A program made the translations under genes and the position numbers. 64,000 nt of DNA, from the NCBI RefSeq assembly GCF_023638055.1, contig NZ_JAKRVY010000002.1, positions 1 through 64,000 on the forward strand. The letters run 5' to 3'. Below, one piece after another: positions 7,166 through 29,332 of the stretch (its first letter is position 1; every line of letters starts with the position of its first letter). The DNA comes from Natranaeroarchaeum aerophilus (GTDB taxonomy: Archaea; Halobacteriota; Halobacteria; Halobacteriales; Natronoarchaeaceae). The notes under the pieces were generated by a model. The model was not told the DNA's origin, made no database searches, and saw only the letters and a program-made list of their open reading frames with translations.

Positions 7166-7189
7166 GCCGCTGTCCGAGAGCGAACAGGC

Positions 7190-9042: not shown

Positions 9043-9077
9043 CTCTCTCACACGTCTGTCCCGAAAACGGAAGCTAC

Positions 9078-9099: not shown

Positions 9100-9104
9100 T
9101 GCGT

Positions 9105-10442: not shown

Positions 10443-10767
10443 CTCTCTGTCAGGGCCGAACCTGCAAACTCCGAGTCCAGATGGACAGGAGGGTACGGCT
10501 GTCTGGGCCAGCCATCGGTTCGGCCGTTCGAGTAACTTCCCCACCGTTGTGGTACAGTTCGGGAAGCCCGGTCATCGTCGGACTTTGCCCGAATGCTTGC
10601 GGGATCTCCGAACCCTCCCTGTTAACGACGGGATGGGGTCATCGGGGCACTGCATATTGCCGGTCTATTGGCGCTGCTTGTTCAACCACCAAACAATATA
10701 TTATCTATAACGACAGTTTAATTTACCAAGGTTCCAATTGCTTCATAATCACCATAGTGATCCATTG

Positions 10768-11715
10768 ATGGATGTCTTCCACGACTCCGACACCGTAGTG
10801 CACCGACGACAGATGACCGATATGAATACTCCTACTATCGCTGTGCCGCCTGACACAGCCTGCAAGACCTGTCATGAGTGTGGGGGTGAAGTACGCCATA
10901 CAGACGACGAACGGATCTGTACGGAGTGTGGGCTGGTACTGGTGCGAGACAGGATCGACCGCGGACCCGACTGGCGATGCCTCGACGATACTGGGCAGCG
11001 GCGAACCGGCGCGCCGGTCGATCGGACCCGTCACGACGGCGGGATATCGACATGCATCGGCTACGGGGAGGGGACCGATATCACAGAAGCGCGGGCACAG
11101 CAACTGATTCGAATCCGAACCCTCCACAACCGCTCTCGCTTCGAATCGAAGGCAGAGCGCAACAGAGCATACGGATTCACCGAGATCAAGCGGATCGTCT
11201 CGTCCCGATCGCTGTCGAGATCGATCGAAGAGCAGGCCTGCTCGCTGTTCGAGTCAGCCCAGTCGGAGGGACTGTTGAGTGGTCGGTCGATCGAAGGGTT
11301 CTCCGCGGGGGCGGTGTATGCCGTCTGTCGTGTCCAGTCGATCCCCCGGACGATCGAGGAGATCGTCGCCGTGGCCCGGGCGGATCGGGACGAACTCGGT
11401 GTCGCATACGACGCGCTCAACCGTGAACTCGGCCTACCGACCGGCCCGATCTCGCCTTTGACGTATCTCCCCCGGTATGCCAGCGAACTGGAACTGGCAA
11501 ACGACATCGAGATGCGTGCACGGGAGTACGTCGATGCCATCGTTACGGCCGGTAAGCTCGGTGGAAAGAACCCGAGTGGCGTCGCAGCAGCCTGCCTGTA
11601 CATGGCTGCGTACGATTTCGGCGTCGACGTCACCCAGACCGCGGCCGCGGACGTTGCCGGCGTCTCCCGGATGACGATTCGGTCGCGGATCACGGAGCTG
11701 AAGGAACTCGATTGA
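10768..11715 (+). CDS. tfb: transcription initiation factor IIB (TFB) homologue
   Basis: Archaeal general transcription factor that bridges TBP-bound promoters and RNA polymerase. The N-terminal zinc ribbon is CHECGGEV ... CTECGLVL. The B-reader/linker is short (PDWRCLDDTGQRRTGAP, then DGGISTCIGYGEG). Two cyclin repeats follow, the first from LSRSIEEQACSLFESA and the second from YASELELANDIEMRAREYVDAI to the end. Start choice is uncertain: ATG at 10768 and ATG at 10813 are both open, and a TATA-like AT-rich patch lies just upstream. Haloarchaea carry many TFB paralogues; the divergent linker suggests an alternative rather than the housekeeping copy. Confidence 0.9.
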   Translation: MDVFHDSDTVVHRRQMTDMNTPTIAVPPDTACKTCHECGGEVRHTDDERICTECGLVLVRDRIDRGPDWRCLDDTGQRRTGAPVDRTRHDGGISTCIGYGEGTDITEARAQQLIRIRTLHNRSRFESKAERNRAYGFTEIKRIVSSRSLSRSIEEQACSLFESAQSEGLLSGRSIEGFSAGAVYAVCRVQSIPRTIEEIVAVARADRDELGVAYDALNRELGLPTGPISPLTYLPRYASELELANDIEMRAREYVDAIVTAGKLGGKNPSGVAAACLYMAAYDFGVDVTQTAAADVAGVSRMTIRSRITELKELD

Positions 11716-11784
11716 GTATTTCAGCCACATATCAACTTTCCCGTAGCTGTCTAAGTTCAAAAGTGATGGCGCAGCAATAAGGAC

Positions 11785-13074
11785 ATGATCGCAATTACAG
11801 GTGCGAAAGGTGGCTGTGGAAAATCGACCGTAACGGTCGGGCTTGCGCGTGCGTTCGCCCGGTCAGAGACATCTGCGATTACGGTCGACGCCGACAGACA
11901 GCTCCCGAACCTGCACGTAATGACCGGTCTCGACCGTGAGCCGACCCTCGCGGAACTCAAGCGAGGGCAGTCGCTCGATACGATCGCACAGACCGATCCC
12001 GAATCGCCGACTGTCGGCGTCGTCCCTGCGCCAAAACCCTCCCAGCCCTTCGAGTTCGAGCCCCATCGCGAGGCGTTTGATACCGACGGCACACAGTTGC
12101 TGGTCGATTGTCCGTCCGGAGCCGGGCCCGATGTCGTCGAGCCGGTTCGACAGGCCGACGGCGTGATCGTCGTTGCGACCGACACCGACCGCGGGCTCGA
12201 CGCCGCCGAAACGTCGATCGAACTGGCACGCCGACTCGACGTACCGGTCTACGGTGCCGTACTGAACCAGTGTTCGGAGGTTCCGACCCAGGCCAACCGC
12301 TGGGAGGGCGTTCCGTTGCTGGGCTGTGTTCCCGACCGGCCCTCCCCCCTGCTGAACCAGACCGTCGAGGAATCGTTCGACGAGATCGTCACGCGACTGT
12401 CGGCACAGTCGGCCGCCGACCGCTCCCTGCCCGAATACGGCGGGGACCGGCTCCCGGTCGGAACGCCGGAACTCGACGATCAACTCGATGGGGGCGTCCC
12501 ACCGGGATCGATCGTTGCACTGGTCGGAGAGCCCTCCAGTCAGGCAGAGCAGCTTCTCTACTCTGCGACCGATGTCCGCGGCACTCTATATATATCGACT
12601 CTCCAGCCCCGCGGAGCCGTCAGGCAGTCGATCGATACGACCGGGCTGCCGACCGGCAATCCCACCATCAGGGAAGTCGGTGGCGAGACGCCGATCGAGG
12701 ACGCCACAGAGCTCATCGAGAAGCTCCCGAACGCGGCGAACCTGATCATCGACGGCACGGACCCCCTCGAACAACAGGATCGATCCACGTATCTGTCCTT
12801 TCTCGGGACGCTCAAGGAGCGACTCGTGGATACTGACAGCATCGGACTGCTCCACTGTCTCGGTGACAGCTCGCATCGGCGAACCGCAACGTTACGCGCT
12901 GCCGATATCGTACTCGAGTTCGAAACGATCCGGCCGGGTATCGAGGGCGATGCGGCCCACTACGTGACGATCCCGAAGTATCGCCCGGCAGATACGGCCA
13001 CCGAGCCGGTTACCCTGACGTTCGCTACTGACTCGCGAACCGGGCCGATCGAGTCTCCAACGGGATCAAACTGA
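11785..13074 (+). CDS. ParA/MinD-type ATPase fused to a degenerate KaiC/RecA-like domain
   Basis: A 429-residue two-domain protein. Residues 1-215 are a deviant-Walker ATPase: TGAKGGCGKST at the start, LLVDCPSGAGPD as the switch II/Walker B region, and GAVLNQCSE. Residues about 225-400 resemble a KaiC/RecA-like domain, opening PVGTPELDDQLDGGVPPGS. There the expected P-loop is replaced by VGEPSSQAEQLL with no GK[S/T], while a Walker B-like LIIDGTDPL remains. The second domain is thus probably a non-hydrolysing scaffold or regulator. It is the first gene of a five-gene operon with RCK_C-like membrane proteins and a second MinD, which suggests spatial control at the membrane. Confidence 0.85.
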   Translation: MIAITGAKGGCGKSTVTVGLARAFARSETSAITVDADRQLPNLHVMTGLDREPTLAELKRGQSLDTIAQTDPESPTVGVVPAPKPSQPFEFEPHREAFDTDGTQLLVDCPSGAGPDVVEPVRQADGVIVVATDTDRGLDAAETSIELARRLDVPVYGAVLNQCSEVPTQANRWEGVPLLGCVPDRPSPLLNQTVEESFDEIVTRLSAQSAADRSLPEYGGDRLPVGTPELDDQLDGGVPPGSIVALVGEPSSQAEQLLYSATDVRGTLYISTLQPRGAVRQSIDTTGLPTGNPTIREVGGETPIEDATELIEKLPNAANLIIDGTDPLEQQDRSTYLSFLGTLKERLVDTDSIGLLHCLGDSSHRRTATLRAADIVLEFETIRPGIEGDAAHYVTIPKYRPADTATEPVTLTFATDSRTGPIESPTGSN

Positions 13075-13086
13075 GAGGGACCGACG

Positions 13087-14190
13087 ATGCTCGACCTACC
13101 AAACGAGGCCTTGCTGGGTATCGCGTACGGACTGCTAACTGGCTTCGTTCCCGCCCTGTTCGTCGGCTTCGCGGCGATCGGAGCCGTTATCGGCTGGGAC
13201 GAGGAACTGCCACCACTTGCTGGTGGCGCTGTCGCGGTACCATTCGCGGTCGGCACCGGCACGATGCTCGGCGTGTTTGTGCCGACCGACGGTCCCGCTG
13301 CGGTTCCGCGGATGCTACTGGGGGGTGGTGTCGTGATGACGCTGGGGGTCGTGGCGACGACCCACGGCACGACCGTAGCACGCAACCTTCCCCAGGACCG
13401 AGCCGCTGTAACGGTCAGAGGCGCGAGTCTCGGACAGGATGCCATCGATGCAGTCGATGCTGCCGGACAGGTGACGATTCGATCGAGTGGACAGATCCGT
13501 ACGTTCGACGGCTGTCCGTCGCCCTCACCGGCACTCCGAGAGCGTCTGGAGGCTGCGCGGTGGCGATTCCCTGCTGACCTGCAGCTCGCGGAAATCGAAC
13601 GCCGACTCGCAGTACGGCTGGAACACGAACACGATCTCTCGCTTGTCGATGTTTCGGTTGATGGACGGGGGATCGCGACGCTCACTGTTGCCCCGTCGGT
13701 CAAGGGCGTGGCATCGACGCTCGACGATGGCCGCCGGGCAGTGACCGTTACCGGACTCGTCCCGACCGGGATCGAACCGGGGGACCGCGTTATGCTTGGC
13801 ACCTCCGCGGACCCAGTCAAGGGTGATGTACTCGCCGTGGGTGAACGGGGCCATTCAGTCGGCGACGCTGGTCCCGGCGTGGCAGTCGCCGAACGACCGC
13901 TCACTGTGGCGGTAGATACGGCCGATGCACGACTGTTGCTAGACGATGTGACCTACCGCATTGCCGTTGTCCCGAGCGGGGAGAACCACGAGTTCGAGGT
14001 CACAACGCTGCTCGAAGAAACAGGTAATCCGGTTCGGATAACTGAGGGTGAGAGGGATCACAACTCGGGTATCGAACCAATCGCCGTCAGAGGAGAGGAT
14101 GACCAATGGCAGTTCTCTCCAGACGAGATCGATTCCCCTGCTCGGCAGGCGTTCGTCGCCGAACCGCAGCAGGGAGGTGGGACGGAATGA
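13087..14190 (+). CDS. membrane protein with TrkA-C/RCK_C-like domain (A)
   Basis: A 367-residue protein with three hydrophobic segments in the first 105 residues (from LLGIAYGLLTGFVPALFVGF, PPLAGGAVAVPFAVGTG and MLLGGGVVMTLGVV). The rest is a long soluble part. Its middle has the pattern of an RCK_C (TrkA C-terminal) ligand-binding domain: VKGVASTLDDGRRAVTVTG followed by GIEPGDRVMLGTS. There is no ion-channel pore signature, so calling it a potassium transporter would be unjustified. It starts 12 bases after the ParA-KaiC gene and overlaps the next gene by four bases. The function is inferred only as membrane-anchored ligand sensing. Confidence 0.82.
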   Translation: MLDLPNEALLGIAYGLLTGFVPALFVGFAAIGAVIGWDEELPPLAGGAVAVPFAVGTGTMLGVFVPTDGPAAVPRMLLGGGVVMTLGVVATTHGTTVARNLPQDRAAVTVRGASLGQDAIDAVDAAGQVTIRSSGQIRTFDGCPSPSPALRERLEAARWRFPADLQLAEIERRLAVRLEHEHDLSLVDVSVDGRGIATLTVAPSVKGVASTLDDGRRAVTVTGLVPTGIEPGDRVMLGTSADPVKGDVLAVGERGHSVGDAGPGVAVAERPLTVAVDTADARLLLDDVTYRIAVVPSGENHEFEVTTLLEETGNPVRITEGERDHNSGIEPIAVRGEDDQWQFSPDEIDSPARQAFVAEPQQGGGTE

Positions 14191-15332
14191 TCGGCAGCTT
14201 TACTCCGGAACTCGCCCGCGAGATTGCAGTCGGTGTCGTGGGAATGGCACTGTTGGCCGGTACTGTCGGGCTCCTTCTCGGGCTCGCGTACCGCTGGGTG
14301 ACGATGCGTGCCCCGCCCACCGGGACGACCCCAGTTGCTGGACTGACGGCAGTCGCACTCTACCTGACCGGCAGTGCATTCAACACCCGCCACCTGTTGG
14401 CCGACCTCCCTCTCGATCACCACCTTACCGCCGGGTATCTTCTCGGAACCTTTCTGGCCGCCGGGCTGATCACCGTATGGGCTGGCGAGATCGGCGATCG
14501 GATCGGCTGTCAGGCTATCGGTCTCTCTCCGATCGATGCTGACGGCGATGCGGCCGAGACGATCCGCTCGTCCCGGCTCGGGATGGCACTCGATCTACCA
14601 GGGGATATCGGTAGCGTGGAGGGATACCGGGCGGTCGACGACGCGACCCGTCGTGCGATCGCTGGCTCGACCGTCACGCTCCCGATTGACCTCTCGATCG
14701 AACGGCGGCGAGACCGACTTGAGCGACACATCGAGCTCGAGTACGACATCGATATCGTCGATGTCCGGATGACCGACCAGGGCCTCGTCGATCGGGTACA
14801 GGTCGGTCGTCGGCCGACCGGGCTCGGATCGATGCTCCCGCCCGGTCGTGTCGCGGTCGCGATTCGCGCGGAGATGACACCTGACGCCAGTCTCGGCGAT
14901 CCGATCGAGATCCGGTCGCCGGAGGACGATGGGCGACTCATCACTACCGGAACACTTCGGGGGACTGATGGGCGGATAGCGACGGTCATCGTCGACGAGG
15001 AGTGGGCGGATATCGACGAGGAGCGGACCTACCGGCTGGTGACACGTCCCGACGATCCGACGGACAGCCACGAGTTTGCAGCGGCGCTCCGCCGAGTCGA
15101 CGAGACCGTTGAGACGCTCACCGTCAGTGCCGACGGCCCGGCCGCCGGCGAGTTCGTCGGCTGGCTGCCCGGCCGGGCGTTGCTGATCGACCGGGACGGC
15201 GAGTTGCTCCCACTACCGGACGACAACGAGACCCTGGAGGCCGACGATGATGTCTGGATACTCGGTTCGCCCGACGAACTACCACCGTCCAATCCGCCAG
15301 CCAACGAGCAACTGGCTGGTGAGCAGCGATGA
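14187..15332 (+). CDS. membrane protein with TrkA-C/RCK_C-like domain (B)
   Basis: A 381-residue paralogue-like partner of the preceding gene. The N-terminal hydrophobic segments include IAVGVVGMALLAGTVGLLLG, VAGLTAVALYLTG and LLGTFLAAGLITVWAGEIG. The soluble part repeats the layout of the upstream protein: a helical stretch with LERHIELEYDIDIVDVRMTD, then an RCK_C-like segment PTGLGSMLPPGRVAVAIR, and a C-terminal beta-rich end. The start ATG overlaps the upstream stop (ATGA), so translation is probably coupled. The frame is open further upstream, but that part is out of place for a membrane N-terminus. The two related membrane subunits could form a heteromer. Confidence 0.82.
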   Translation: MIGSFTPELAREIAVGVVGMALLAGTVGLLLGLAYRWVTMRAPPTGTTPVAGLTAVALYLTGSAFNTRHLLADLPLDHHLTAGYLLGTFLAAGLITVWAGEIGDRIGCQAIGLSPIDADGDAAETIRSSRLGMALDLPGDIGSVEGYRAVDDATRRAIAGSTVTLPIDLSIERRRDRLERHIELEYDIDIVDVRMTDQGLVDRVQVGRRPTGLGSMLPPGRVAVAIRAEMTPDASLGDPIEIRSPEDDGRLITTGTLRGTDGRIATVIVDEEWADIDEERTYRLVTRPDDPTDSHEFAAALRRVDETVETLTVSADGPAAGEFVGWLPGRALLIDRDGELLPLPDDNETLEADDDVWILGSPDELPPSNPPANEQLAGEQR

Positions 15333-15697
15333 ACGGCCCCCGGACACACGTCGAGCGGGCGGGCGGCGTGACAACGGTCCGTGTGATCCTGACCAACGAC
15401 CGCTCGACACCACAGACCGTCAGACTCCGAAGCGAACTGGATGGCCCGGTCTGGCCACCACAGCGCAACGGCGTCGTCGATGCCCACTGGACGGACGGTG
15501 TCTGGGAGGCGACGATCCAGCCCGGCCGGAATCGCGGGGTCGGGTTCGCCAGTCCGGCACCACCGGTTGATCCACCCGTGTCGGTCGTCGCAACCGAACG
15601 CCACGACGCCGACGCGCCGGATCGATCACCCGACGCCGTGCTTGCGGATCTCGACGACTGGCGACCGACCTCGGAGGTGCTCGACAACGAGCCATGA
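15329..15697 (+). CDS. small hypothetical protein in the ParA/RCK_C operon
   Basis: A 122-residue soluble protein I do not recognise with certainty. The first about 90 residues look like a beta-sandwich-type domain (TTVRVILTNDRSTPQTVRLR ... WPPQRNGVVDAHWTDGVWEA ... GVGFASPAPP). The tail is acidic. It has no signal peptide or cysteines. The start overlaps the upstream stop by four bases and the stop overlaps the MinD start by four bases, so it is certainly part of the operon. The strict coupling suggests a stoichiometric partner of its neighbours. Confidence 0.78.
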   Translation: MNGPRTHVERAGGVTTVRVILTNDRSTPQTVRLRSELDGPVWPPQRNGVVDAHWTDGVWEATIQPGRNRGVGFASPAPPVDPPVSVVATERHDADAPDRSPDAVLADLDDWRPTSEVLDNEP

Positions 15698-16392
15698 TCG
15701 TCGCAGTCTCCGGTGGCAAGGGCGGGGTTGGCAAGTCCACGACGGCCTGGAATCTCGGCCGTGAACTGGACGCCGTCGTCGTCGATGCCGACCTGTCGAC
15801 CGCGGACTTGCCCCCCGGTAGTGGCCCGGATCTGCACGACGTGCTCGCCGGACGCGTCGAGCCGGTCGACGCCGTCGAAACTGTCGGCGAGGTTCCGATT
15901 CTCCCCTGTGGCCGCACCCTCTCCGGTGCTCGTGCGGCCGAGCTCGATCGCTTCGGTGACATCATCGAGCGCGTCGAGCGCAAGTGGGGCCGCGTCGTCG
16001 TCGACTGCCCTGCCGGGCTGGCCCGTGACGTCGGCGTCGAACTCCGAACTGCCGATCTGGCGGTCCTCGTAACGACGCCGCACAAACCCGCGCTGGTCGA
16101 CGCGTATCGCACGCACGACCTGGCGGACGATCTCGATACACCAGTCGCCAGCGTCGTGGTCAATCGCATCGAAAGCGACCGGGATCGCGAGATAGCGGAC
16201 CGACTCGGCCGCGAACTCGGCGTCGACATCACGACGATCGAGAGCCAGTCCGCGCTGGCCGAGGCACAGGCCGGCTGGGTCCCGATCCGTGACTACGAGC
16301 CCGAGGCGAGCGCGGCGACAGCCTACGAGTCGCTTGCCGATCGACTGGAACGCGCGGACGAACGGCTCTCCGATCGCGCCGAATCGCTCTGA
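15694..16392 (+). CDS. MinD/ParA-family ATPase
   Basis: A 232-residue deviant-Walker ATPase. The P-loop is SGGKGGVGKSTT at residues 5-16 with the signature lysine, followed by VVDADLSTADLPPG and VVVDCPAGLARDV. It lacks a clear C-terminal amphipathic membrane-targeting helix; the end is acidic and helical (YESLADRLERADERLSDR). Proteins of this group position cell structures or partition DNA through ATP-driven dimer cycling; in haloarchaea a MinD homologue is known to affect placement of archaella and chemoreceptors. It is the last gene of the five-gene operon and converges with the surface-protein gene, with 25 bases between stops. Confidence 0.92.
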   Translation: MIVAVSGGKGGVGKSTTAWNLGRELDAVVVDADLSTADLPPGSGPDLHDVLAGRVEPVDAVETVGEVPILPCGRTLSGARAAELDRFGDIIERVERKWGRVVVDCPAGLARDVGVELRTADLAVLVTTPHKPALVDAYRTHDLADDLDTPVASVVVNRIESDRDREIADRLGRELGVDITTIESQSALAEAQAGWVPIRDYEPEASAATAYESLADRLERADERLSDRAESL

Positions 16393-16417
16393 AAAACAAT
16401 CTGGTTTCTGAAGTCGG

Positions 16418-18712
16418 TTACTCCCGACGAGCCACAGCTCCGAGGGTTACCAGGACGGCGACCAGTCCTGCCACGACGGTAAAGCCAGGCAAGCCGTCAT
16501 CGTCGTCGGATTCGTCCGTGCTCTCGCCCTCGTCGCCGCCATCGACTGTCATCGACTGGGCAATCTCGTCGTCGGGTGAACTGACCACGAGCTCCACATC
16601 GCCCGCGTCGTCGAATGTGGCGTCGAACTCAACAGTCGTGTCCTCGTTCCGATCGAGCGTCACAGCCTGCGTGTCGACTTCCTCGCCATCAAGTGCGAGC
16701 GCGATCTCGGCGTCGTCGATGCCGCCGCCGACGTTGCGAACTGTCACGCCAACTGTCTCGGTGTCGCCCTGTTCGACGGTCTCGGGAACTTCTAGGTCCT
16801 CAAGCTCGAAGTCAGCAGGTGGCAGCACCTCGACGGTGCCGGTTTCGGTCTGGTCGTAGTGTTCGACAACGTGCGTGGTCGTGCCGTCCTCGTCGTGGAC
16901 GTACTCGATCGGCTCGACCGTCCCGTCCTCCCGTACCTCGAACTCGTCTTCGAGGACGCGATCGCCGTCAACGCGAAGTTCGAGAGTGGTCCAGACGCTC
17001 GTGTCGAGATCAGTCTCGAAGACCGGTTCGATCTCGTACTCTCGGTCTTGCGTTGCCTCCTCGGGCAGTTCGACCGACTGGAGTGAGACGTTTGCCGGCT
17101 CGACGACTTGCAACTCGCCCAATTCTTCATCGTCGCCGAGCGAAACCGTTCCTGATCGATCAGCTGACCAGGTAATCGTCTCGGTCGTTTCCTCGTCGGC
17201 GTCGAGTTGGAACGTCGTGATGCTTGCCTGCTCGTCGCCGACTGCCACGGAGACTGTTTCCGAGCCGGGCCCACCAGTATTCTCGTAGGTGGCGCTAACC
17301 TTCGCGGTGGTTCCTTCGACGACAGTTTCGGTGTCTAATTCAGCGTCGACGAACTCGATGCTCGGGGGTTCGAGCACTTCGACACTCACTGTGTCGGACT
17401 GACCAGCGACGGTTGCGGTGATGTCAGTCTGGCCGATCGAGTTCGCTTCGACAGAGCCGTCTTCGACTGAGGCGATGGCTTCTTCGGTGTCGTAGTCTGC
17501 AACTTCGCTGGCGGTAACAGTCGATCCGTCGTGTAGTGTCAATTCGACGGTTGCACTGGTGGATTCGCCTTCACCGATCGTCGACTGTGTTACCGAGAGA
17601 TCGACCTCCTCGACCTGCCACTGCAGGATCGGGTACTCGTCAGTGGTCGTCCAGTACTCGCCGAAGTCCAGATCCATGTTCTCCTCGGCTGCTGCACCGG
17701 TCATCTCGCTCGTTCGGAGCCCTGTTGCGTGCTCGTCATCGTTGCCGATTCCTACGTCAGTCTCCGAACTATCGACATCCCAGTAGGCGGTCGACGGAGC
17801 AGCCCCGTTGTTAGGGATGAATCCGGCGAACCCATAGGGATCTTCCTCACTGGCATCGACAGCGCCGGTCGAGTACACGCCGATCGAGGGTTCGTCGTGT
17901 GATCCGAAGGCTCCACCGACACCGATGGGTGCACTGACATCCGCGGAGCTGTACGCCTGTGTGACAACCGCGTCCGAGGCGTGGTGGCCAACGACTCCGC
18001 CAGCAACTGCGTCCTCACTGTGGACGGTCCCAGCTGATGACACCTCTGTTATTTCCGAAAAGGTAGTTCCGATAACACCTCCGGCGTGTGACTCACCACT
18101 ACGCACAGTTGCGTCGACAGAAGCCCGTTCGACAGTGCCTTCGCTTACTCGCCCGGCGATGCCACCGATGTCCCCTTCTTTACTCTCGACGGTTCCAGTG
18201 ACAGTGACGTACCGGACTTCGCCGGTCGTGTAACCGACGACACCACCCACATTTGTGTTACCCTGCATATCTACGTCCTCGAACGTCACGTTCTCGATGG
18301 TTCCAGAAGAACCACCAAAGGGACCAACATAATCGGACCCGGGACGCTCGATGGTTAGCCCTGTAACCGTATGTCCCTGTCCGTCGAAGCTTCCGCTAAA
18401 CAACGTGGTACTCCGGTCACCACTGACACGGTCGCCGATAGGAACGAATCCTTGACCAGCATCCCACGCGTCAGTCTCGCTCGCATCGATATCATTGCCG
18501 AGCACGTAGTGTGCTTCGAGGTCTTGGTTCATCGCCTGGAGCTCTTCGACGGTGGTGATAACGTATGGGTTTGCTTCCGTTCCTTCGCCGGCCAGCTCGT
18601 CAAGGTCGGCTGCCTCGTCGGCTGCTGCCGGACCGATGGCGAGCCCGGAGACAGCGAGAACTGTCAAGAGTACTCCAGCGAAAGCAAGTATTCGATATCG
18701 TCTCGTGCTCAT
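16418..18712 (-). CDS. GLUG-repeat surface protein with PGF-CTERM anchor (copy 1)
   Basis: A 764-residue secreted protein. It opens with a Sec-type signal (RRYRILAFAGVLLTVLAVSG, then AAADEA). Residues about 45-340 hold repeated GLUG-type units (for example GNTNVGGVVGYTTGEV, GGIAGRVSEGTV, GGVVGHHASDAV), predicted to form a beta-helix. An Ig-like BIG2-type segment follows (SIGQTDITATVAGQSDTVSV), then several CARDB-like domains. It ends with DDGLPGFTVVAGLVAVL and a basic tail, the PGF-CTERM signal for archaeosortase processing and lipid anchoring. The C-terminal half is nearly identical to the neighbouring copy while the GLUG half differs. It has its own TATA-like promoter. Confidence 0.9.
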   Translation of the reverse strand: MSTRRYRILAFAGVLLTVLAVSGLAIGPAAADEAADLDELAGEGTEANPYVITTVEELQAMNQDLEAHYVLGNDIDASETDAWDAGQGFVPIGDRVSGDRSTTLFSGSFDGQGHTVTGLTIERPGSDYVGPFGGSSGTIENVTFEDVDMQGNTNVGGVVGYTTGEVRYVTVTGTVESKEGDIGGIAGRVSEGTVERASVDATVRSGESHAGGVIGTTFSEITEVSSAGTVHSEDAVAGGVVGHHASDAVVTQAYSSADVSAPIGVGGAFGSHDEPSIGVYSTGAVDASEEDPYGFAGFIPNNGAAPSTAYWDVDSSETDVGIGNDDEHATGLRTSEMTGAAAEENMDLDFGEYWTTTDEYPILQWQVEEVDLSVTQSTIGEGESTSATVELTLHDGSTVTASEVADYDTEEAIASVEDGSVEANSIGQTDITATVAGQSDTVSVEVLEPPSIEFVDAELDTETVVEGTTAKVSATYENTGGPGSETVSVAVGDEQASITTFQLDADEETTETITWSADRSGTVSLGDDEELGELQVVEPANVSLQSVELPEEATQDREYEIEPVFETDLDTSVWTTLELRVDGDRVLEDEFEVREDGTVEPIEYVHDEDGTTTHVVEHYDQTETGTVEVLPPADFELEDLEVPETVEQGDTETVGVTVRNVGGGIDDAEIALALDGEEVDTQAVTLDRNEDTTVEFDATFDDAGDVELVVSSPDDEIAQSMTVDGGDEGESTDESDDDDGLPGFTVVAGLVAVLVTLGAVARRE

Positions 18713-18719
18713 ACTCTGG

Positions 18720-18729
18720 TTGGCTCGTC
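18720..18729 (-). promoter_or_regulatory. shared promoter box upstream of GLUG protein copy 1
   Basis: Ten bases, read on the plus strand as TTGGCTCGTC, lie eight bases from the start codon. The identical ten bases occur at exactly the same distance before the pilin-like gene at 21594. A TATA-like TTTAAA lies just beyond at about 18735-18742, roughly 27 bases before the ATG, so the transcript is probably leaderless. Confidence 0.5.
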
Positions 18730-18808
18730 CTGCTTTTTAAATTTAGACAACAACAAGACAATGAATCACGTGGGACAACACCGGTCTCGATTGGAAAAGA
18801 GTGCTGGA

Positions 18809-21091
18809 CTAGCGGCGACGAGCGATGGAACCGGCCGTCAGTAGGACGGCCAACAGCCCAGCAACTGCGGTAAAGCCAGGCAGACCGTCATCGTCGGCTT
18901 CGTCATCCCCGTTTCTTTCCCCAGCTTCGACGGTCACTGACTGGGTCATCTCGTCGTCGGGCGAACTCACGGTGAGGTCTACGTCATCTGCATCGTCGAA
19001 CGCGGCGTCGAGTTCAATCGTCGTGTCCTCGTTGCGGTCGAGAGTGACTGCTTGCGTGTCGACCTCCTCGCCGTCGAGTGCGAGCGTGATGTCGGCGTCG
19101 TCGATGCCGCCGCCGACGTTGCGTACTGTAACACTCACCGTCTCGGTGTCACCTTGTTCGACTGCCTCGGAGACTTCTAGGTCGTCAAGCTCGAAGTCAG
19201 CAGGTGGGAGAACCTCGACGGTCCCAGTCTGGGTCTCGTCATAGTGTTCGACGACGTGAGTGGTTGTACCGTCCTCGTCGTGAGCGTACTTGATGGAATC
19301 AACCGCTCCGTCCTCGCTCACCTCGAACTCGTCTTCGAGGACCCGGTCGCCGTCAACGCGGAGTTCGAGGGTGGTCCAGACACTCGTGTCGAGATCAGTC
19401 TCGAAGACCGGTTCGATCTCGTACTCACGATCCTGCGTCGCTTCCTCGTGCAGCTCGACTGATTGAAGAGTGACGTTTGCCGGATCGACGACTTCCAACT
19501 CGGCCAACTCTTCATCGTCGAGCGAGACCATTCCTTCATCGTCGGCCGACCAGGTGATCGTCTCGGCCGTTTCCTCGTCAGCGTCGAGTTGGAACGTCGT
19601 GATGCTCGCCTGTTCGTCAGCAACCGCCACGGAGACCGTTTCCGATCCTGGCCCACCAGTGTTCTCGTAGGTTGTGCTGACCTGCGCGGTGGTCCCTTCA
19701 ACGACAGTTTCCGTGTCCAGTTGTGCGTCGAGGAACTCGATGCTCGGCGGTTCCAGCACTTCGACACTCACTGTATCGGACTGACCAGCAACGGTTGCGG
19801 TGATGTCGGTCTGGCCGATCGAATTCGCTTCGACAGAGCCATCATCGACTGAGGCAATGGCCGTTTCGCTGTCGTAGTCCGCAACTTCGCTGGCGGTGAC
19901 AGTCGATCCGTCGTGCAGGACCAACTCGACGGTTGCACTGGTGGATTCGCCTTCACCGATCGTCGACTGGGTTACCGAGAGATCCACGTCTTCGACCTGC
20001 CACTGCAAGATCGGGTACTCGTCAGTGGTTGTCCAGTACTCCTCGAAGTTGAGGTTCATGTTCTGTTCGGCTGCTGCACCGGTCATCTCGGCTTGCCCGA
20101 GTCCAGTACTATACTCTTGTGCTGGTTCTTCCCCAGTATTCATTACGCTGGTTCCTGTGGTGGTGCCCGAACTGTCTATACTCCAGTACGTGTCAGAGGG
20201 GGATGGCGAATCGACGTGAACCTCTCCAGCAAATCCGCCAACTTCTTCAGTTCCATCGACTGGTCCAGAAGCGTACGTACTGGCTACTGGTGCATCCACG
20301 TGGCCTGCAACACCGCCAACGGTGTCTCCGACCACCTCGGCGGAACTGTACGAGTTTCGGATCTGACTCGAGCCAATATGGTAGCCGACGATGCCACCTG
20401 CACGGCCATCAGTAGCTCGTACAGTGCCTGTCGAATACGATTGCGAAATCGTGGCACCGCCACTCCCCACGATAATGCCTGCGCGACCCTCACCGGAGAC
20501 ATCGATATCTGCCGACACGCGCGTAATAACGCCTTCCGAGCTACGAGCAACGACCCCACCGACGGGTTCGTCGGAGGACTCGACCTGCCCCGTGACGGCG
20601 ACTGACCGGACCTCTCCGGTGAGATGTCCGACTGCACTGCCGGCATACCTGTTGCCGGATACTTCAACATCTTCGAGTTTCGTATTTTTCACCGTCCCTG
20701 ACAGGCCACTAAACAGACCAGTATACTGCTCGCCAGGACGGTTAATTACGAGTCCGGAGATCGTATGTCCCTGTCCGTCAAGCGTCCCGCTGAAGGCTGG
20801 GCCGCTACCGCTTCCAATGGTGTCCTCTGCAATCGGGTCGAATCCTGCCCCTGCATTCCAGTTGTCGGTTGAAGTTGCGTCGATATCATTCCCGAGTACG
20901 TAGTGTGCTTCGAGGTCCTGCTCCATTGCCTGGAGCTCCTCGGCTGTGGTGATGACGTAGGGATCGGCTTCTGTTCCTTCGCCGTCCAGCTCAAATGATG
21001 ATGTTGAACTGTCACCTACTACGGCAACAGGACTAATTAATAGAGCTAGTGAGGCAACCAGTAAACAGACGCAAATTAATTTTTTTGCCAT
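18809..21091 (-). CDS. GLUG-repeat surface protein with PGF-CTERM anchor (copy 2)
   Basis: About 760 residues with the same layout as its downstream neighbour: a signal peptide (AKKLICVCLLVASLALLISP), GLUG-type repeats (GGVVARSSEGVI, GGIVGYHIGSSQ, GGFAGEV), a BIG2-like segment, CARDB-like domains and a C-terminal PGF motif (DDGLPGFTAVAGLLAVLL) before an arginine end. From TGAAAEQNMNLNF onward it is almost the same protein as copy 1. A GTG at 21100 overlaps the stop of the pilin-like gene (TAGTG) and would add three residues; the ATG at 21091 is the simpler start. It is likely co-transcribed with the upstream pilin-like gene. Confidence 0.9.
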   Translation of the reverse strand: MAKKLICVCLLVASLALLISPVAVVGDSSTSSFELDGEGTEADPYVITTAEELQAMEQDLEAHYVLGNDIDATSTDNWNAGAGFDPIAEDTIGSGSGPAFSGTLDGQGHTISGLVINRPGEQYTGLFSGLSGTVKNTKLEDVEVSGNRYAGSAVGHLTGEVRSVAVTGQVESSDEPVGGVVARSSEGVITRVSADIDVSGEGRAGIIVGSGGATISQSYSTGTVRATDGRAGGIVGYHIGSSQIRNSYSSAEVVGDTVGGVAGHVDAPVASTYASGPVDGTEEVGGFAGEVHVDSPSPSDTYWSIDSSGTTTGTSVMNTGEEPAQEYSTGLGQAEMTGAAAEQNMNLNFEEYWTTTDEYPILQWQVEDVDLSVTQSTIGEGESTSATVELVLHDGSTVTASEVADYDSETAIASVDDGSVEANSIGQTDITATVAGQSDTVSVEVLEPPSIEFLDAQLDTETVVEGTTAQVSTTYENTGGPGSETVSVAVADEQASITTFQLDADEETAETITWSADDEGMVSLDDEELAELEVVDPANVTLQSVELHEEATQDREYEIEPVFETDLDTSVWTTLELRVDGDRVLEDEFEVSEDGAVDSIKYAHDEDGTTTHVVEHYDETQTGTVEVLPPADFELDDLEVSEAVEQGDTETVSVTVRNVGGGIDDADITLALDGEEVDTQAVTLDRNEDTTIELDAAFDDADDVDLTVSSPDDEMTQSVTVEAGERNGDDEADDDGLPGFTAVAGLLAVLLTAGSIARRR

Positions 21092-21099
21092 ACCGTTCA

Positions 21100-21594
21100 C
21101 TAACTTTCGATTACCAGCAATTTATTATTTGGTTCCTCATCCGCCCAGTTTGAGTCGGCTGGTGGCTGAACGATAAACTCTATTTCGCCAGTCGACTGAT
21201 CCGGGGGAAGTTCCATATTGGCATCCCTGCCGAATGCAAAGGTTACAGAGTTGTCATCAGGGCCCGTTTGGGCGGACAACGCATTATCCATCCGGACGCT
21301 ACCTGCCTCTGCGACAACTACGGCATCAGTTACTTCGTTTCCGTCTTCGTCAACGACATTGACCGTCACGTCGTTTTCACCCTCCTCAATAGATGGGTCC
21401 TCAAATTCTACATCCACCTCGGTATCGGTCTCGAACGTTCCGACGCCGCCCAGGATCTGCAGCATGATCCCGAGCGAGGCGACGCCGATGACCAGCGCGA
21501 TGACGAGTCTGATCGGCAGTCCCTCGATCGCCCGTTCGTCCCCGAGGAACGAACGGTCCGATTCTGTCGTGTCCTGCGGTCGTTTCGACTTCAT
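21100..21594 (-). CDS. pilin-like protein with N-terminal membrane helix
   Basis: A 164-residue protein. A basic/acidic leader of about 26 residues ends at GLPIRLVIALVIGVASLGIM, a pilin-like hydrophobic helix preceded by a glycine where a type IV prepilin peptidase could cut. The rest is an acidic beta-rich ectodomain with DEDGNEVTDAVVVAEAG, resembling an Ig- or carboxypeptidase-regulatory-like fold. The gene ends by overlapping the possible GTG start of GLUG copy 2. Divergent to it lies the HerA-like ATPase of the filament cluster. I infer a structural or minor pilin-type subunit; the exact family is not confirmed. Confidence 0.8.
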   Translation of the reverse strand: MKSKRPQDTTESDRSFLGDERAIEGLPIRLVIALVIGVASLGIMLQILGGVGTFETDTEVDVEFEDPSIEEGENDVTVNVVDEDGNEVTDAVVVAEAGSVRMDNALSAQTGPDDNSVTFAFGRDANMELPPDQSTGEIEFIVQPPADSNWADEEPNNKLLVIES

Positions 21595-21601
21595 ACCCCG
21601 A

Positions 21602-21618: not shown

Positions 21619-21642
21619 TTAAACTTTGACTCAAAAGTTTAA
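21619..21642. promoter_or_regulatory. divergent TATA boxes forming a 9-base inverted repeat
   Basis: TTAAACTTT and its exact complement AAAGTTTAA are separated by six bases. Each arm lies close to 27 bases before a start codon: the right arm before the HerA-like gene (21668) and the left arm before the pilin-like gene (21594). The repeat is therefore best read as two back-to-back TATA boxes driving leaderless transcripts. Binding at one arm could exclude the other, or a repressor could cover both. Confidence 0.6.
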
Positions 21643-21667
21643 ATCCGATACCGGGACAAATATTAGC

Positions 21668-22723
21668 ATGAGCTTCGTTATCGGTCGCGGCAACGATGCC
21701 GATCCCGAGCAAGCGGGCTATCTTGGGCGGTATCGCGCACTCGACGGCAGTGAGGGGGCAAAGCTACACGTGGATCTCGACGGCCCGCACGCGATGTTGA
21801 TCGTGGGAAAACGCGGCTACGGGAAGTCGTTTACGATGGGCGTCGTCGCCGAAGAACTGGCGCGGGCACCCGGCGTCGCACCGGTCGTCATCGACCCGAT
21901 GGGCGTCTTCGGGACGCTTGGAGACGGGGCAGATGGCGAGCCGGTACCGGTCGAGGTGCTGGACGCCCCGGCGGTCTCCGCGGACACGCTCGATCCGCGG
22001 TCGTGGTGTTCACTGCTCGGGCTGTCGCCCGAAAGCGGGGCCGGTGGGCTGGTCTGGCAGGCCGCCCAGGAGTCGAGCACGCTCTCGGGGATGCGCCGAC
22101 ACGTCGAGGCCAGCGATGCGCCGGCCAACGACGTCCGCGCGGCAGTGAACCACATCGACCTCGCGGACTCGTGGGGCGTCTTCGATCCCGATGGGCTCGA
22201 CGCCGCGGCACTCTCGGGCACGGAAATTTCTGTACTGGACATATCGGGGCTGGACGCCGCGCCGATGAACGCCGTCTGTCGGGGCGTGGGCGAGGCACTG
22301 TACCGGGCGCGCATCGACGAGTCGATCGACCGACTGCCGTGGCTGCTGATCGACGAGGCCCACACCTTCTTCGGCGGCGTCGGCCAGCCCGCGCTGCATA
22401 CGATCCTCACACGCGGGCGCGCACCGGGCGTGAGCCTCGTGCTGGCGACACAACGGCCCAGCGCGGTGTCGGATACCGCGATCTCCCAGTCCGACGTGTT
22501 GATCTCCCACCGGCTGACCGCCGAAGCCGACCTGGAGGCGCTGACCGCCGCCCAGCCGACGTACATGAACGAGTCGCTTGACGAACGCCTCCCCACCGAG
22601 CCGGGCGAAGTCGTCGTAATCGACGACGCGACGGAGACGATCCACGCCGCCCAGGTCCGGTTTCGGGATACCCCACACGGCGGTGGCAGTCCGAGTGCGC
22701 GCGAAGTCGCCGAACTGGACTGA
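21668..22723 (+). CDS. HerA/VirB4-like ATP-binding protein of filament cluster
   Basis: A 351-residue P-loop ATPase. Walker A is IVGKRGYGKSFT near residues 45-56, Walker B is WLLIDEAHTFF near residue 222, and the downstream LATQRPSAVSDT with a following VLISHRL is typical of the HerA/FtsK-type conjugation and pumping ATPases. There is no membrane segment. The frame is open 14 codons upstream, but TATA placement points to the ATG at 21668 as a leaderless start. It is the first gene of a co-directional block with PilB and PilC homologues, where it may act as a second motor or a quality-control ATPase. Confidence 0.85.
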   Translation: MSFVIGRGNDADPEQAGYLGRYRALDGSEGAKLHVDLDGPHAMLIVGKRGYGKSFTMGVVAEELARAPGVAPVVIDPMGVFGTLGDGADGEPVPVEVLDAPAVSADTLDPRSWCSLLGLSPESGAGGLVWQAAQESSTLSGMRRHVEASDAPANDVRAAVNHIDLADSWGVFDPDGLDAAALSGTEISVLDISGLDAAPMNAVCRGVGEALYRARIDESIDRLPWLLIDEAHTFFGGVGQPALHTILTRGRAPGVSLVLATQRPSAVSDTAISQSDVLISHRLTAEADLEALTAAQPTYMNESLDERLPTEPGEVVVIDDATETIHAAQVRFRDTPHGGGSPSAREVAELD

Positions 22724-22785: not shown

Positions 22786-23406
22786 ATGACTGATATCGAT
22801 CGGCTCGACCAGCGACTCTCGGCGGTCGAACGCGTCGTCGTCGATGGCGACGTTTCGCTCGACGAGCTATCCGAGCTGACGGAGCTGGCAGAGACCGTGG
22901 CGGAGCTCGAGAACCGGGTCAAAGAACAGGAACAGCGAATTGCGGAACTCGAAGCGACGGCCCAGTCGATCGAGGGCTACGTCGGCAACGTCGAGTCGGT
23001 CAACGAGGAGGTCGAACGGCAGGCGGCGACGGCCGTCGCGACGGTCGATCGCCTCGAACGTCAGCTGGATGCGATCGAGGTCGAACTCGACGACCTGCGG
23101 GGTGGCGTCCTGCTGGAGGACGAGGGCGACGCGGACGCCTCGAACGAGGACGAGGAGCCGGGCGACGAAGCCGACGACGACAGCGAGTTCGTCTTTCTCC
23201 AGGACGAACCGACGCCCGAGCGGGCGATCGACGGTATCGTCGACGAGGAACCGACGGCAACGGTCGACGACGGGATGGACCGGCCGGTCTCCACTGCCGA
23301 CCAGGAAACCGTCGACACTGCGGTCAGCGAGGAGCCGGCCACCACGGCGACCGGCGATGAAGAGGATGACGGACTCTTTACTTCGTTGCGATCGAAGTTC
23401 GGATGA
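22786..23406 (+). CDS. coiled-coil protein of filament cluster
   Basis: A 206-residue acidic protein. Residues about 1-105 are a long coiled coil with regular leucines (LDELSELTELAETVAELENR, KEQEQRIAELEATAQ, VDRLERQLDAIEVELDDLRG). The rest is a disordered Asp/Glu/Thr-rich tail ending in a short conserved-looking GLFTSLRSKFG. From memory it fits the haloarchaeal DUF7310 coiled-coil family found beside secretion ATPases, but I could not check this. It overlaps the next gene by four bases and has its own TATA box. A scaffold or adaptor role is likely. Confidence 0.8.
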   Translation: MTDIDRLDQRLSAVERVVVDGDVSLDELSELTELAETVAELENRVKEQEQRIAELEATAQSIEGYVGNVESVNEEVERQAATAVATVDRLERQLDAIEVELDDLRGGVLLEDEGDADASNEDEEPGDEADDDSEFVFLQDEPTPERAIDGIVDEEPTATVDDGMDRPVSTADQETVDTAVSEEPATTATGDEEDDGLFTSLRSKFG

Positions 23407-23963
23407 TCCGGTACGTGCTGGCGGCGCTGTTGACGGTGGCGATCCTGGGGATGGCTGTCATCGCCATCGATGCCACGGCGGTCGACAACACCGAAAGCCA
23501 GCTTCTCAGTACCGCTTCGGAGATCCAAGCGGCGGCAGTCGATCTCGCAGAAACCGAGCAGACGACGCCGGAGACACATCCGAACCCCAGCCGGGTCGTG
23601 GAGGTGACGATACCGGAGGCGTCGTTGACGACCGTCGGCGTCGACCACTTCGAGATCGAACCGTTACCCGAGGCTGACGCGAGCGTCGTCCGGTACACGC
23701 TCGAGGACGGGACGACCGGCCGTGAACTCCTCGACGAGCGGATCGTCTACCACGAGCCCACGGAAAACCGAACGACGCGGGTCGGGACGTCCGGAACGCA
23801 GGTGCTGACCCTCGAACTCCGCCGGGACGGCTCAGGTGATCCGGTTGTCGTCGCCAATCCCCCGCCACGCGAGGCACCGGGTCGCGTCGCTGCCCCGGTC
23901 GACGTACCGGAGAGGGAAGCCACGTCTGTCGCACGACCGACCGTCACCGTCGGGTACTGGTGA
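23403..23963 (+). CDS. membrane-anchored protein of filament cluster
   Basis: A 186-residue protein with an N-terminal hydrophobic helix (MIRYVLAALLTVAILGMAVI) and an extracytoplasmic part. The helix start and following DNTESQLLSTASEIQAAAVDL resemble pilin-like anchoring with an amphipathic continuation. From memory it resembles the DUF7311 family; this is not verified. Its start overlaps the coiled-coil gene by four bases, so the two are translated together. It probably sits in the membrane beside the filament apparatus as a pseudopilin or assembly factor. Confidence 0.78.
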   Translation: MIRYVLAALLTVAILGMAVIAIDATAVDNTESQLLSTASEIQAAAVDLAETEQTTPETHPNPSRVVEVTIPEASLTTVGVDHFEIEPLPEADASVVRYTLEDGTTGRELLDERIVYHEPTENRTTRVGTSGTQVLTLELRRDGSGDPVVVANPPPREAPGRVAAPVDVPEREATSVARPTVTVGYW

Positions 23964-24041: not shown

Positions 24042-25958
24042 ATGTCTACGGACGGAGTCGAGCATACGGTCCGGGGGTGGCTCTCCGAACTCGGCCTCGA
24101 GGGCCTGCTCGACGAGTCGACAGAGTCCCACTGTGGCTGTAGCCTGCAGTTCGAGGATCGCACGCTCGTCGTCGAGGCGGACGACTGTAGCGGCGACCTC
24201 GCAACGTCACCCGCGTGTCGCCATTCCGTCGTCGAGGAACTCGCGACGCGGGACGCCGAGGCGATCGTCGTCTACTCGGAGGGATTGAAACATCGCTACG
24301 ACAGTGCCGGCACCGGCTTTTTCGGGGCTGCTGGACGGTTCGTCGAGCTGCTCGGCGATCGCGACGACGTGCTGGCCCGTGACGTGGCCCGGGATCCGAT
24401 CGGTGCCGGCACCCAACTGGAGACCAGGGTCGATGCTATCGGCGACGTGGCGCTCGAATCCGGGCTCCTCGACGCCATCGCGGGGGTCGATACGTATGCG
24501 GACGTGTTCGCCCCGCGCGTGGGACTGGAGATCGCGTACTACTACGTCGACCGCTCGATCGACGACTCCGCACGGCTCCAGGACGTCCGGGAACTGGAAA
24601 CCGGGAGTACGGCACGGATCTACGAGCGCGAGGACCGGTTGCCGCTGTACGCCCTCGACATCGTGGATCTCTCGCTATCGCCGGAGGAACGTGACCTCGT
24701 CGTGGGGGGCTACGAGGCGATCGCGGAAGGCTGGGTCGAGGGGGATCGTGCCCCCTCCCGGGCGATCGAGTTCGTCTCCGACGACCCCGTCGACCCGAAG
24801 CTGACGACCGTCCTCGAAAAGCATACCGAGGGGTACGGGATCCTCGAGGATCTGTTTTCCGACCCGGCAGTTACGGACGTGTACGTCACCTCGCCGGTGA
24901 CGAACAACCCGCTTCGCGTAGAACTCGACGGCGAGGCCATGGAGACGAACGTCCATCTCACCGAGCGGGGCGCGAAGGCACTTGCCTCGCGAGTGCGCCG
25001 GACCAGTGGCCGGGCCTTCTCGCGAGCGAAGCCGACGATCGATGCGACTGCCTCGCTTGCAAACGGTCGCGGCCTGCGGATCGCGGGCGTCACTGACCCG
25101 GTAGCAGACGGCATCGGCTTCGCGTTCCGCGAGCAGTCCGACGACCGGTTTACGATTCCCGGCCTGGTCGCAAACGGGACGATGCCCGCCGAGGTCGCAG
25201 GCTTCCTGTCGACCGCGATCGAGCGCAACGCGGCCACGATGATCGCGGGGACGCGCGGCTCCGGGAAGACCACACTGCTCGGGACCCTGCTCTACGAGGT
25301 AACGCCAGAAACCCGGACGGTCGTAATCGAGGATACGCCGGAGCTTCCGGTTGGGCCGCTCCAGTCGGTCGGCCGTGACGTGCAGGCGTTACGGACTGGG
25401 ACGGGCGACGGACCGGAGATTTCGCCCGCCGACGCTCTGCGGACCGCGCTACGTCTCGGCGATGGTGCGCTGGTCGTCGGAGAGATCCGGGGCGACGAAG
25501 CCCAGGTGCTCTACGAGGCGATGCGCGTCGGCGCGAACGCCAACGCAGTGCTCGGGACGATCCACGGCGACGGGGGCGATGAGGTGTACGAGCGGGTCGT
25601 CTCCGATCTTAACGTCGAGCCGTCCTCGTTCGGTGCGACCGACCTTGTCGTCACGGTGCAAGCGTACGGGACAGAAGATGGGCGGAGTCGGCGGGTCGCC
25701 CGGATCGAGGAGGTGCTGGGCGATGGCGACGAGATCTGGTTCGAGCCGCTGTACGAACTCGACGGCGAGACGGCAGCAGCGACCGGACGGATCGATCGGG
25801 GGGAGAGTCGCTTTGTCAACGAGATGGCCGGACCGACCGAGGAGTACGCCGATGTCCGTGCGGCGATCGCCGAGCGGACCGAACGGATCGAACGACTGGC
25901 CGCCGACGGCCGGCTCTCGCCGGAGGAGGTAGCATCGGCGTATATGGATCGAGGGTGA
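24042..25958 (+). CDS. pilB: type II/IV secretion-system ATPase (PilB/TadA type)
   Basis: A 638-residue hexameric motor ATPase of the archaeal filament family. The N-terminal third is a haloarchaeal extension with a Cys pair (ESHCGCSLQF) and a later Cys (SPACRHS). The core has Walker A AGTRGSGKTTLLG near residue 400, the Asp box VIEDTPELPVG, Walker B ALVVGEIRGDEA near residue 474 and the His box GTIHGDGGDE. It powers assembly of type-IV-like pili. The stop overlaps the start of the membrane partner by four bases. It is not the archaellum FlaI: no fla genes are nearby. Confidence 0.94.
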   Translation: MSTDGVEHTVRGWLSELGLEGLLDESTESHCGCSLQFEDRTLVVEADDCSGDLATSPACRHSVVEELATRDAEAIVVYSEGLKHRYDSAGTGFFGAAGRFVELLGDRDDVLARDVARDPIGAGTQLETRVDAIGDVALESGLLDAIAGVDTYADVFAPRVGLEIAYYYVDRSIDDSARLQDVRELETGSTARIYEREDRLPLYALDIVDLSLSPEERDLVVGGYEAIAEGWVEGDRAPSRAIEFVSDDPVDPKLTTVLEKHTEGYGILEDLFSDPAVTDVYVTSPVTNNPLRVELDGEAMETNVHLTERGAKALASRVRRTSGRAFSRAKPTIDATASLANGRGLRIAGVTDPVADGIGFAFREQSDDRFTIPGLVANGTMPAEVAGFLSTAIERNAATMIAGTRGSGKTTLLGTLLYEVTPETRTVVIEDTPELPVGPLQSVGRDVQALRTGTGDGPEISPADALRTALRLGDGALVVGEIRGDEAQVLYEAMRVGANANAVLGTIHGDGGDEVYERVVSDLNVEPSSFGATDLVVTVQAYGTEDGRSRRVARIEEVLGDGDEIWFEPLYELDGETAAATGRIDRGESRFVNEMAGPTEEYADVRAAIAERTERIERLAADGRLSPEEVASAYMDRG

Positions 25959-28857: not shown

Positions 28858-29332
28858 GGCCCAGACCGAGCCGTTCGCGGCGATCATCTCCGTGGGGATG
28901 CTGGTGATCGGCATCGGGATCTTCGCAGTGTACATGGGCGGACTGGTGCCCAACAGCGGCCAGTCCGCGACAGCCGACCAGACGATCGATCTGGTCTGGA
29001 ACGATATCGAGGAGGACGGAACCTTCTACGGCCACGACGACGGTGAGCAGGTGCTGACTGACTCGGTTACGGCGGACGCGCTCCCGGCCGGTGCCACGGT
29101 GTACGTTCGTGTCACCGCCATCGACGAGGACGGCCAGGAGTACGAGGCGTCGGCCGGGTTCCCGTCGGGCTATCCGGACGATACGAGCGTGCTGGACGTG
29201 TGGACGCTGGAAGATGACGTCGAATCCGAGGGGATCCCCGAGCGCGCGTCGGTCGCGACCAGAACGATCCCGATCACCGTCGAGAACCGGGCCAACACCC
29301 GAACCGGCACGCTGGAGGTCGCTGTATGGTGA
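28835..29332 (+). CDS. pilin-like protein of filament cluster (DUF7285-like)
   Basis: A 165-residue protein starting SRWSKSRAQTEPFAAIISVG, where the basic leader, a QTEPFAA turn and the following hydrophobic helix (to about residue 35) resemble archaeal pilin-type N-termini. The ectodomain is acidic and beta-rich, with no Cys. I chose the ATG at 28835 because it places the helix at the N-terminus; the frame is open 16 codons upstream inside the preceding gene. It overlaps the next gene by seven bases. It may be a major or minor subunit. Confidence 0.82.
   Translation: MSRWSKSRAQTEPFAAIISVGMLVIGIGIFAVYMGGLVPNSGQSATADQTIDLVWNDIEEDGTFYGHDDGEQVLTDSVTADALPAGATVYVRVTAIDEDGQEYEASAGFPSGYPDDTSVLDVWTLEDDVESEGIPERASVATRTIPITVENRANTRTGTLEVAVW

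Follow-up and report, generated by a model that had tools for sequence, protein, structure and literature searches.

Type IV pili (T4P) are surface filament machines. According to the main text of Makarova et al. 2016 (PMC4858521), T4P loci recurrently carry MinD/FleN, KaiC-like and TFB genes, and a coiled-coil protein is noted there in the halobacterial 4F T4P system. In Haloferax volcanii the ATPases MinD4 and MinD2 affect the placement of the archaellum (PMC11588486). The KaiC-like ArlH controls the archaellum motor ArlI (PMC8978795), and haloarchaea make cyclic di-AMP (c-di-AMP), which probably has an osmotic role (PMC6741144). Here we describe a module of five genes, A to E (11785-16392), from Natranaeroarchaeum aerophilus. 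It lies in a window of 64,000 nucleotides, i.e. the whole stretch of DNA that was analysed (NCBI RefSeq assembly GCF_023638055.1, contig NZ_JAKRVY010000002.1, positions 1 to 64,000 of the forward strand), and all five genes were confirmed at this place. We think it fairly probable that they form a dedicated accessory module of the haloarchaeal T4P subtype built by PilB/PilC at 24042-27691, in which A and E would serve in positioning and B and C as membrane anchor and gate.

The link of the module to the pilus is well supported by co-occurrence, linkage, co-loss and the existence of pilus-specific subfamilies of B, C and E. The initial annotation had placed the module directly before surface-protein and filament genes, and this was confirmed, as surface proteins, a pilin-like protein, PilB and PilC lie downstream of it. 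The T2SSE ATPase, T2SSF platform protein and pilin-like genes that mark an archaeal T4P locus were all found, with the pilus core spanning 21626-33473; Pilin_N was matched at 0.096 only. Fused A (counted at an E-value <1e-80) was present in 57 of 392 Halobacteria. Clade-I PilB, at 57-83% identity and counting one truncated copy, was present in 59, and 55 genomes had both (Fisher p ~1e-59, without correction for phylogeny). Genus g7, which served as a control for relatedness, showed the same without exception: A, D and PilB were all found in 8 of its 21 genomes and none of the three in the other 13. One of these 13 genomes (G147; genomes, loci and contigs carry our own G, L and C numbers) still has a pilus-type B/C pair, which is probably a relic.

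A comparison with the congener G006 pointed in the same direction. Its alignment to the window ends at 10469, resumes only for 21667 to 22705 (HerA, 90% identity) and continues again from 34875 on, so that both 10470-21666 (TFB, A-E, surface proteins and pilin-like gene) and 22706-34874 (pilus genes) are missing from it. The simplest reading of such a two-sided deletion around HerA is the loss of one functional unit. The HerA-like gene itself is intact between both deletions (L247:8986-10172), and may have a separate role since it was kept while both of its flanks were lost. A recent horizontal gain by N. aerophilus had first been suspected because relatives in family f1 are without the locus and because Natrialbaceae copies are the best matches or tree neighbours of A, C and E. 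It was dropped for the last step, as the HerA gene kept between two deletions in G006 indicates loss; an older transfer of the locus into the genus is possible.

A second, paralogous pilus (PilB ~45-56% identity), which is more widespread and includes a second copy in N. aerophilus on contig C9, was used for comparison. Its loci hold DUF7310 and mostly the DUF7283-7286 set, and none of HerA, the pilin-like DUF7382 and A-E was found near them, the second copy of this genome included. As the paralogous pilus is without A-E, these are genes of one pilus subtype and not general pilus genes. The second T4P locus of N. aerophilus (L164, C9:31500-51400) adjoins a CetZ/tubulin-like gene (7119-8198, minus strand) that was recognised by eye.

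Gene order was followed in about 60 neighbourhoods around A or C homologues from Halobacteria and in 50 loci of named organisms. The order A-B-C-D-E of the window recurs in ten Natrialbaceae-type genomes, several times beside pilus genes (L084-L090 and L186 are complete, L091 ends at C, and L141 holds part of the ParA half of A, with no D/E seen). Rearranged loci have B-C beside the pilin-like gene and HerA, and A with convergent E-D at the PilC/TFB end (L092-L098, L144-L155); in Haloarculaceae, B-C-D-E faces A or is followed by it (L099, L104, L122, L190, L194, L195, L197). B and C adjoin each other in 111 of 112 loci, and in 61 of 109 their reading frames share 4 or 1 bp; D and E are neighbours in all 43 loci, with a 4-bp overlap in 42. 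The five-gene order that had been taken for an operon is thus one of several arrangements, but B-C and D-E are stable units. Co-conservation across haloarchaea, on which the initial annotation had made its proposal depend, was found, since the unit is kept in Natrialbaceae and Haloarculaceae. Recurrent linkage, co-occurrence and conserved junctions together rule out a chance neighbourhood. The Haloarculaceae genome G302 has two copies of A and D-E (L104 on C1 and L105 on C3); one copy lies on a small contig, next to a further and divergent set of pilus genes.

In N. aerophilus exact 4-base overlaps are present at the B/C, C/D and D/E junctions. A stands outside this chain, 12 bases before B, which rules out an overlap of all five genes and limits the overlapping operon described earlier to B-E. 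A fixed product ratio, which had been thought probable from the overlaps, was not borne out, as only this genome has the C/D overlap, which was conserved in 0 of 24 loci. A longer mechanical open reading frame of gene C, from 14106, probably does not mark the true start.

Two ParA/MinD ATPases had been reported for the module. E is indeed a MinD, with archaeal MinD as its nearest solved relative, but A is a fusion of a ParA half with a pseudo-KaiC half and not a plain ParA. The KGGVGKST motif is conserved in E, with both Walker A lysines in 35 of 37 sequences, and the E proteins of pilus loci form a clade of their own in the E tree (support 93/100), apart from a widespread DUF7857-MinD pair. 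Elsewhere (L024-L053) that pair is kept with an upstream 112-amino-acid protein and a ~285-amino-acid protein, and in many loci with a convergent TFB gene. The ParA half of A, with FleN (4e-11) and archaeal MinD (2e-8) as nearest solved structures, keeps the deviant Walker A motif KGGCGK[ST], and both lysines are present in 39 of 41 aligned sequences. In the DUF7125 half GEPSSQAEQ replaces the KaiC-type P-loop GxxGxGKT and one Glu is invariant; the Walker A motif of the KaiC/ArlH family was not found in this half across the 41-sequence alignment, and it is tied to KaiC/ArlH only as the fold-related DUF7125. Elsewhere, in Haloferacaceae and Halobacteriaceae, the two halves are separate adjacent genes, with one stop between them.

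The similarity to FleN, an anti-activator, bears on an alternative that we regard as rather unlikely, namely that A and E, jointly with the neighbouring TFB, counteract the activation of pilus transcription in the manner of FleN/FlhG, while B and C report the state of the cell. TFB neighbours the module in many loci (L084, L087, L092, L093, L096, L105, L113, L122 and others) and is, in the main text of PMC4858521, the commonest transcription factor in archaeal T4P loci. However, TFB is missing from several loci, the similarity to FleN is at family level only (45 bits), and the membrane proteins B and C fit less naturally into a transcriptional switch.

For B and C a positive-inside charge bias predicts an N-out/C-in topology, with the soluble domains in the cytoplasm, and their AlphaFold models consist of three long helices and beta domains with a predicted local distance difference test score (pLDDT) of 83 (B) and 84 (C). 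The description as two RCK_C-like membrane proteins applied to C, which has a recognisable RCK_C domain, but not to B. In C of this genome the TrkA_C match (1.8e-4) is under the Pfam cut-off; the domain was matched in 41 of 42 C homologues (best 2e-8), and the predicted fold of C matches the RCK_C domains of KhtT with c-di-AMP (8e-4), MthK, TM1088B and BusR. Against solved RCK proteins, a PDB profile search with the C sequence gave 0.06 for MthK and 0.013 for TM1088. A match of C to SMUBP-2 (1e-3) was set aside, as it covers a single beta region only, and a viral fold library gave nothing credible for C. B of this genome had no family match of its own in Pfam-type scans and no match in a PDB profile search, and TrkA_C was found in none of 10 pilus-linked B proteins. 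Among B proteins overall TrkA_C was matched in 21 of 40 (best 1e-16), and both stand-alone B proteins that were scanned singly matched; the RCK_C label for B comes from these stand-alone paralogues. The absence of a pore domain from the membrane proteins had been noted correctly, and family scans found no pore or transporter domain in A-E.

The nearest PDB fold match of B was RcpC of the Tad pilus (9gzr, E-value 2.4e-3), with low aligned length and TM-score, and 12 of 40 B proteins matched Pfam RcpC, with 4.6e-4 as the best value. This allows a second alternative, to which we give a similarly small chance: B and C would be platform or alignment parts, as an archaeal counterpart of RcpC/CpaB, with A, D and E as assembly chaperones or motor regulators and RCK_C as a ligandless leftover. 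It would agree with the vanished RCK_C signal in the pilus-linked B proteins and with the tight association of B/C with HerA and the pilin-like gene, which is kept also in loci away from PilB (L124-L129). Besides the limited extent of the fold match, the membrane topology speaks against it, as RcpC has a single transmembrane helix and a periplasmic ring domain (PMC12307814), whereas B and C are predicted to have three helices and, by charge, to be C-in. Moreover, the stand-alone B/C pairs linked to K+ channels share the architecture, so that the fold is not specific to pili.

In the C tree the pilus-linked clade (59 rows, 57 of them labelled) and the stand-alone clade (43 rows) were split with 100/100 support, and C of the window grouped with the collinear Natrialbaceae copies. 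N. aerophilus also has a stand-alone B/C pair (C1:81960-84320). A cluster transcribed divergently adjoins 32 of 43 stand-alone loci, with K+ channels in both scanned examples; these two channels have Ion_trans_2 and TrkA_N and no TrkA_C. Stand-alone B/C carry RCK_C without RCK_N, whereas the adjacent channel has TrkA_N without TrkA_C (e.g. L018:9467-10621, L020:4965-6134), and the parts of one gating ring may thus be spread over separate proteins. A ThiS/SAMP-like small gene follows stand-alone C in 25 of 43 loci (e.g. L022:7574-7849). The least probable alternative gives the pilus-linked B and C the task that their stand-alone relatives probably have, namely to control a K+ channel or antiporter in trans; the vicinity of the pilus would then be incidental or serve a pilus-coupled osmotic control. 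In its favour are these channel neighbours and the fold matches of C to the gating domains of KhtT and MthK. An ion-transport operon was rejected as the principal explanation, because the annotated genes of the pilus locus in the window include no recognised channel or transporter, the operon-like layout joins B/C to ParA/MinD genes and not to transport genes, and pilus-linked B/C form a clade of their own and share the fate of the pilus genes. The module looks to have been assembled from three older gene pairs, because the pilus clades of B/C and E split from older pairs and the halves of A are separate genes elsewhere; this is better supported for B/C and D/E, and for A we infer it.

In the accessory module that we favour, E and the ParA half of A would be dimers, switched by nucleotide, that decide where or when a pilus is assembled, and A and E would thereby place or license the PilB motor. 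E and D may be made together by translational coupling, with D as a putative MinD partner, and the KaiC-like, P-loop-less half of A could dock on PilB as the KaiC-like ArlH does on ArlI. B and C would form a membrane anchor or receptor for both ATPases, and the cytoplasmic RCK_C domain of C might tune assembly to a small ligand or to the status of cytoplasmic K+ or c-di-AMP. Both halves of this proposal have precedent, because MinD affects archaellum placement and haloarchaea make c-di-AMP. The earlier suggestion that the module may place or gate the filament machinery has therefore gained strong support as regards the link to the pilus; positioning by the ATPases and gating by a ligand are putative. 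A more specific scheme would have RCK_C of C bind c-di-AMP, K+ or a divalent ion and, by way of B, release or recruit the MinD/ParA pair; PilB would then be placed and switched on as the ionic or second-messenger state dictates. It is speculative and probably incorrect in this form. If true, no earlier case of an RCK-type sensor coupled to positioning by ParA/MinD would be known to us.

Several observations weigh against the favoured explanation. In four genomes with clade-I PilB no full-length fused A reached the cut-off: A is weaker in G178 and G267, its two halves are present but interrupted in G164, and G284 carries a divergent A1-A2 next to PilC. Two genomes with A have no clade-I PilB. 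Genus g7 apart, the co-occurrence counts are uncorrected for phylogeny. The A-E unit lies far from PilB in G345, G244 and G184, and B and C may be dispensable, because about seven genomes with clade-I PilB have no pilus-type B/C. At the protein level, the models of B and C had low predicted template modelling (pTM) scores of 0.44 and 0.36, and the C-termini of E, judged by inspection only, looked helical but acidic and not clearly hydrophobic, as a membrane-targeting helix would be. RCK_C folds, moreover, have many possible ligands, or none.

The features of the module and of the surrounding T4P locus are collected in the table. The two surface proteins lie in tandem (764 and 763 amino acids), both with GLUG and CARDB, and have near-identical middle parts; they are probably a recent duplication. 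Just upstream of the locus are genes for a Tpt1/KptA RNA 2'-phosphotransferase and Orc1/Cdc6 (7922-8602 and 9039-10301), which have the same place in G006.

Table. Features of the five-gene module and its T4P locus in the window (aa, amino acids or residue numbers; values are E-values).
Feature	Positions	Strand	Length or residues	Remarks
TFB (TFIIB-type initiation factor) gene	10738..11715	+		Pfam TFIIB 3.6e-31; directly upstream of A; recurrent neighbour
Gene A	11785..13074	+	429 aa	ParA/MinD-type ATPase fused to DUF7125 (KaiC-like)
A, ParA/MinD/FleN-like ATPase half	11785..12429	+	aa 1-215	CbiA/ParA 1e-11 to 4e-13
A, DUF7125 half	12448..13026	+	aa 222-414	Pfam 3.4e-36; KaiC-like, Walker A lysine absent; Glu at aa 255 invariant
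Gene B	13087..14190	+	367 aa	three-transmembrane-helix protein; cytoplasmic beta domains (predicted), RcpC-like middle, eroded RCK_C
B, three transmembrane helices	13096..13386	+	aa 4-100	N-out/C-in by charge rule
B, beta region, probably RcpC/CpaB-like domain	13732..13971	+	aa 216-295	exact span inferred
Gene C	14187..15332	+	381 aa	three-transmembrane-helix protein; RCK_C-like C-terminal domain
C, three transmembrane helices	14205..14516	+	aa 7-110	N-out/C-in by charge rule
C, RCK_C (TrkA_C) domain	15102..15281	+	aa 306-365	sequence and fold match
Gene D	15329..15697	+	122 aa	DUF7857 (Pfam 1.4e-22)
Gene E	15694..16392	+	232 aa	archaeal MinD-type ATPase (1.5e-34); P-loop GGKGGVGKST intact
Surface protein 1	16418..18712	-		signal peptide, GLUG, CARDB; recurrent neighbour
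Surface protein 2	18809..21100	-		paralogue of surface protein 1
Pilin-like protein (DUF7382)	21100..21594	-		in most loci immediately precedes B
HerA-like ATPase	21626..22723	+		sole locus gene kept in congener G006
Coiled-coil DUF7310 protein	22786..23406	+		Pfam 2e-28
DUF7311 protein	23403..23963	+		Pfam 4.5e-43
PilB-type assembly ATPase (T2SSE)	24042..25958	+		Pfam 1.6e-16, over cut-off; pilus-subtype marker
PilC/TadC-type platform protein (T2SSF)	25955..27691	+		T2SSF 1.6e-3, below cut-off; conserved PilC place
DUF7283, DUF7285, DUF7284, DUF7286 pilin-like/structural genes	27778..33473	+		T4P locus, in this order

These results give five unstudied haloarchaeal families (the ParA-DUF7125 fusion, B, C, DUF7857 and the MinD clade) a place in a definite machine. 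They also show how older gene pairs were made into an accessory kit, which is clear for B/C and D/E. As the module unites ATPases of the positioning kind and membrane proteins akin to the sensor domains of ion channels, it suggests that the place or time of pilus building is under the control of a cytoplasmic signal, and makes the question of where and when archaea build pili testable. It also supplies a candidate for a kind of receptor that is poorly known in haloarchaea, one that responds to ion or c-di-AMP state.

We found no publication joining ParA/MinD, an RCK_C membrane pair and this pilus in the open-access literature, supplements excluded. The initial annotation had proposed an undescribed system, which holds within that literature for the combination but not for all of its parts, as MinD/FleN, KaiC-like and TFB genes are already recurrent T4P partners in the main text of PMC4858521. 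Judged by the coiled coil (DUF7310) and a Cys-containing N-terminus, PilB at 24042-25958 would belong to the haloarchaeal T4P subclade 4F of that paper, which is alike in its PilB/TadC pair, intracellular coiled-coil protein, S-layer-like surface proteins and nearby TFB and MinD-type genes; a membrane pair of TrkA/RCK type is not mentioned in its main text, and no ParA-DUF7125 fusion or DUF7857 was seen there. The C-terminal domain of C is like the c-di-AMP- or Ca2+-binding RCK_C domains of KhtT, MthK and BusR in sequence and fold, but C has no RCK_N and no pore, and has three transmembrane helices and extra beta domains. The middle domain of B has a weak likeness in fold and sequence to RcpC/CpaB of Tad pili (PMC12307814), on the opposite predicted side of the membrane and with three transmembrane helices instead of one; moreover, archaea are not known to have a secretin. 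MinD4 and MinD2 of H. volcanii (PMC11588486) are likewise archaeal MinD-type ATPases tied to a T4P-like machine, and MinD2 is in an operon with a small partner; E differs in that its clade pairs with DUF7857, is linked to a pilus and has B and C as putative membrane partners. With ArlH/FlaH (PMC8978795), finally, A shares a KaiC-like fold tied to a secretion-type ATPase, but the KaiC-like half of A has no P-loop and forms one protein with a ParA ATPase.

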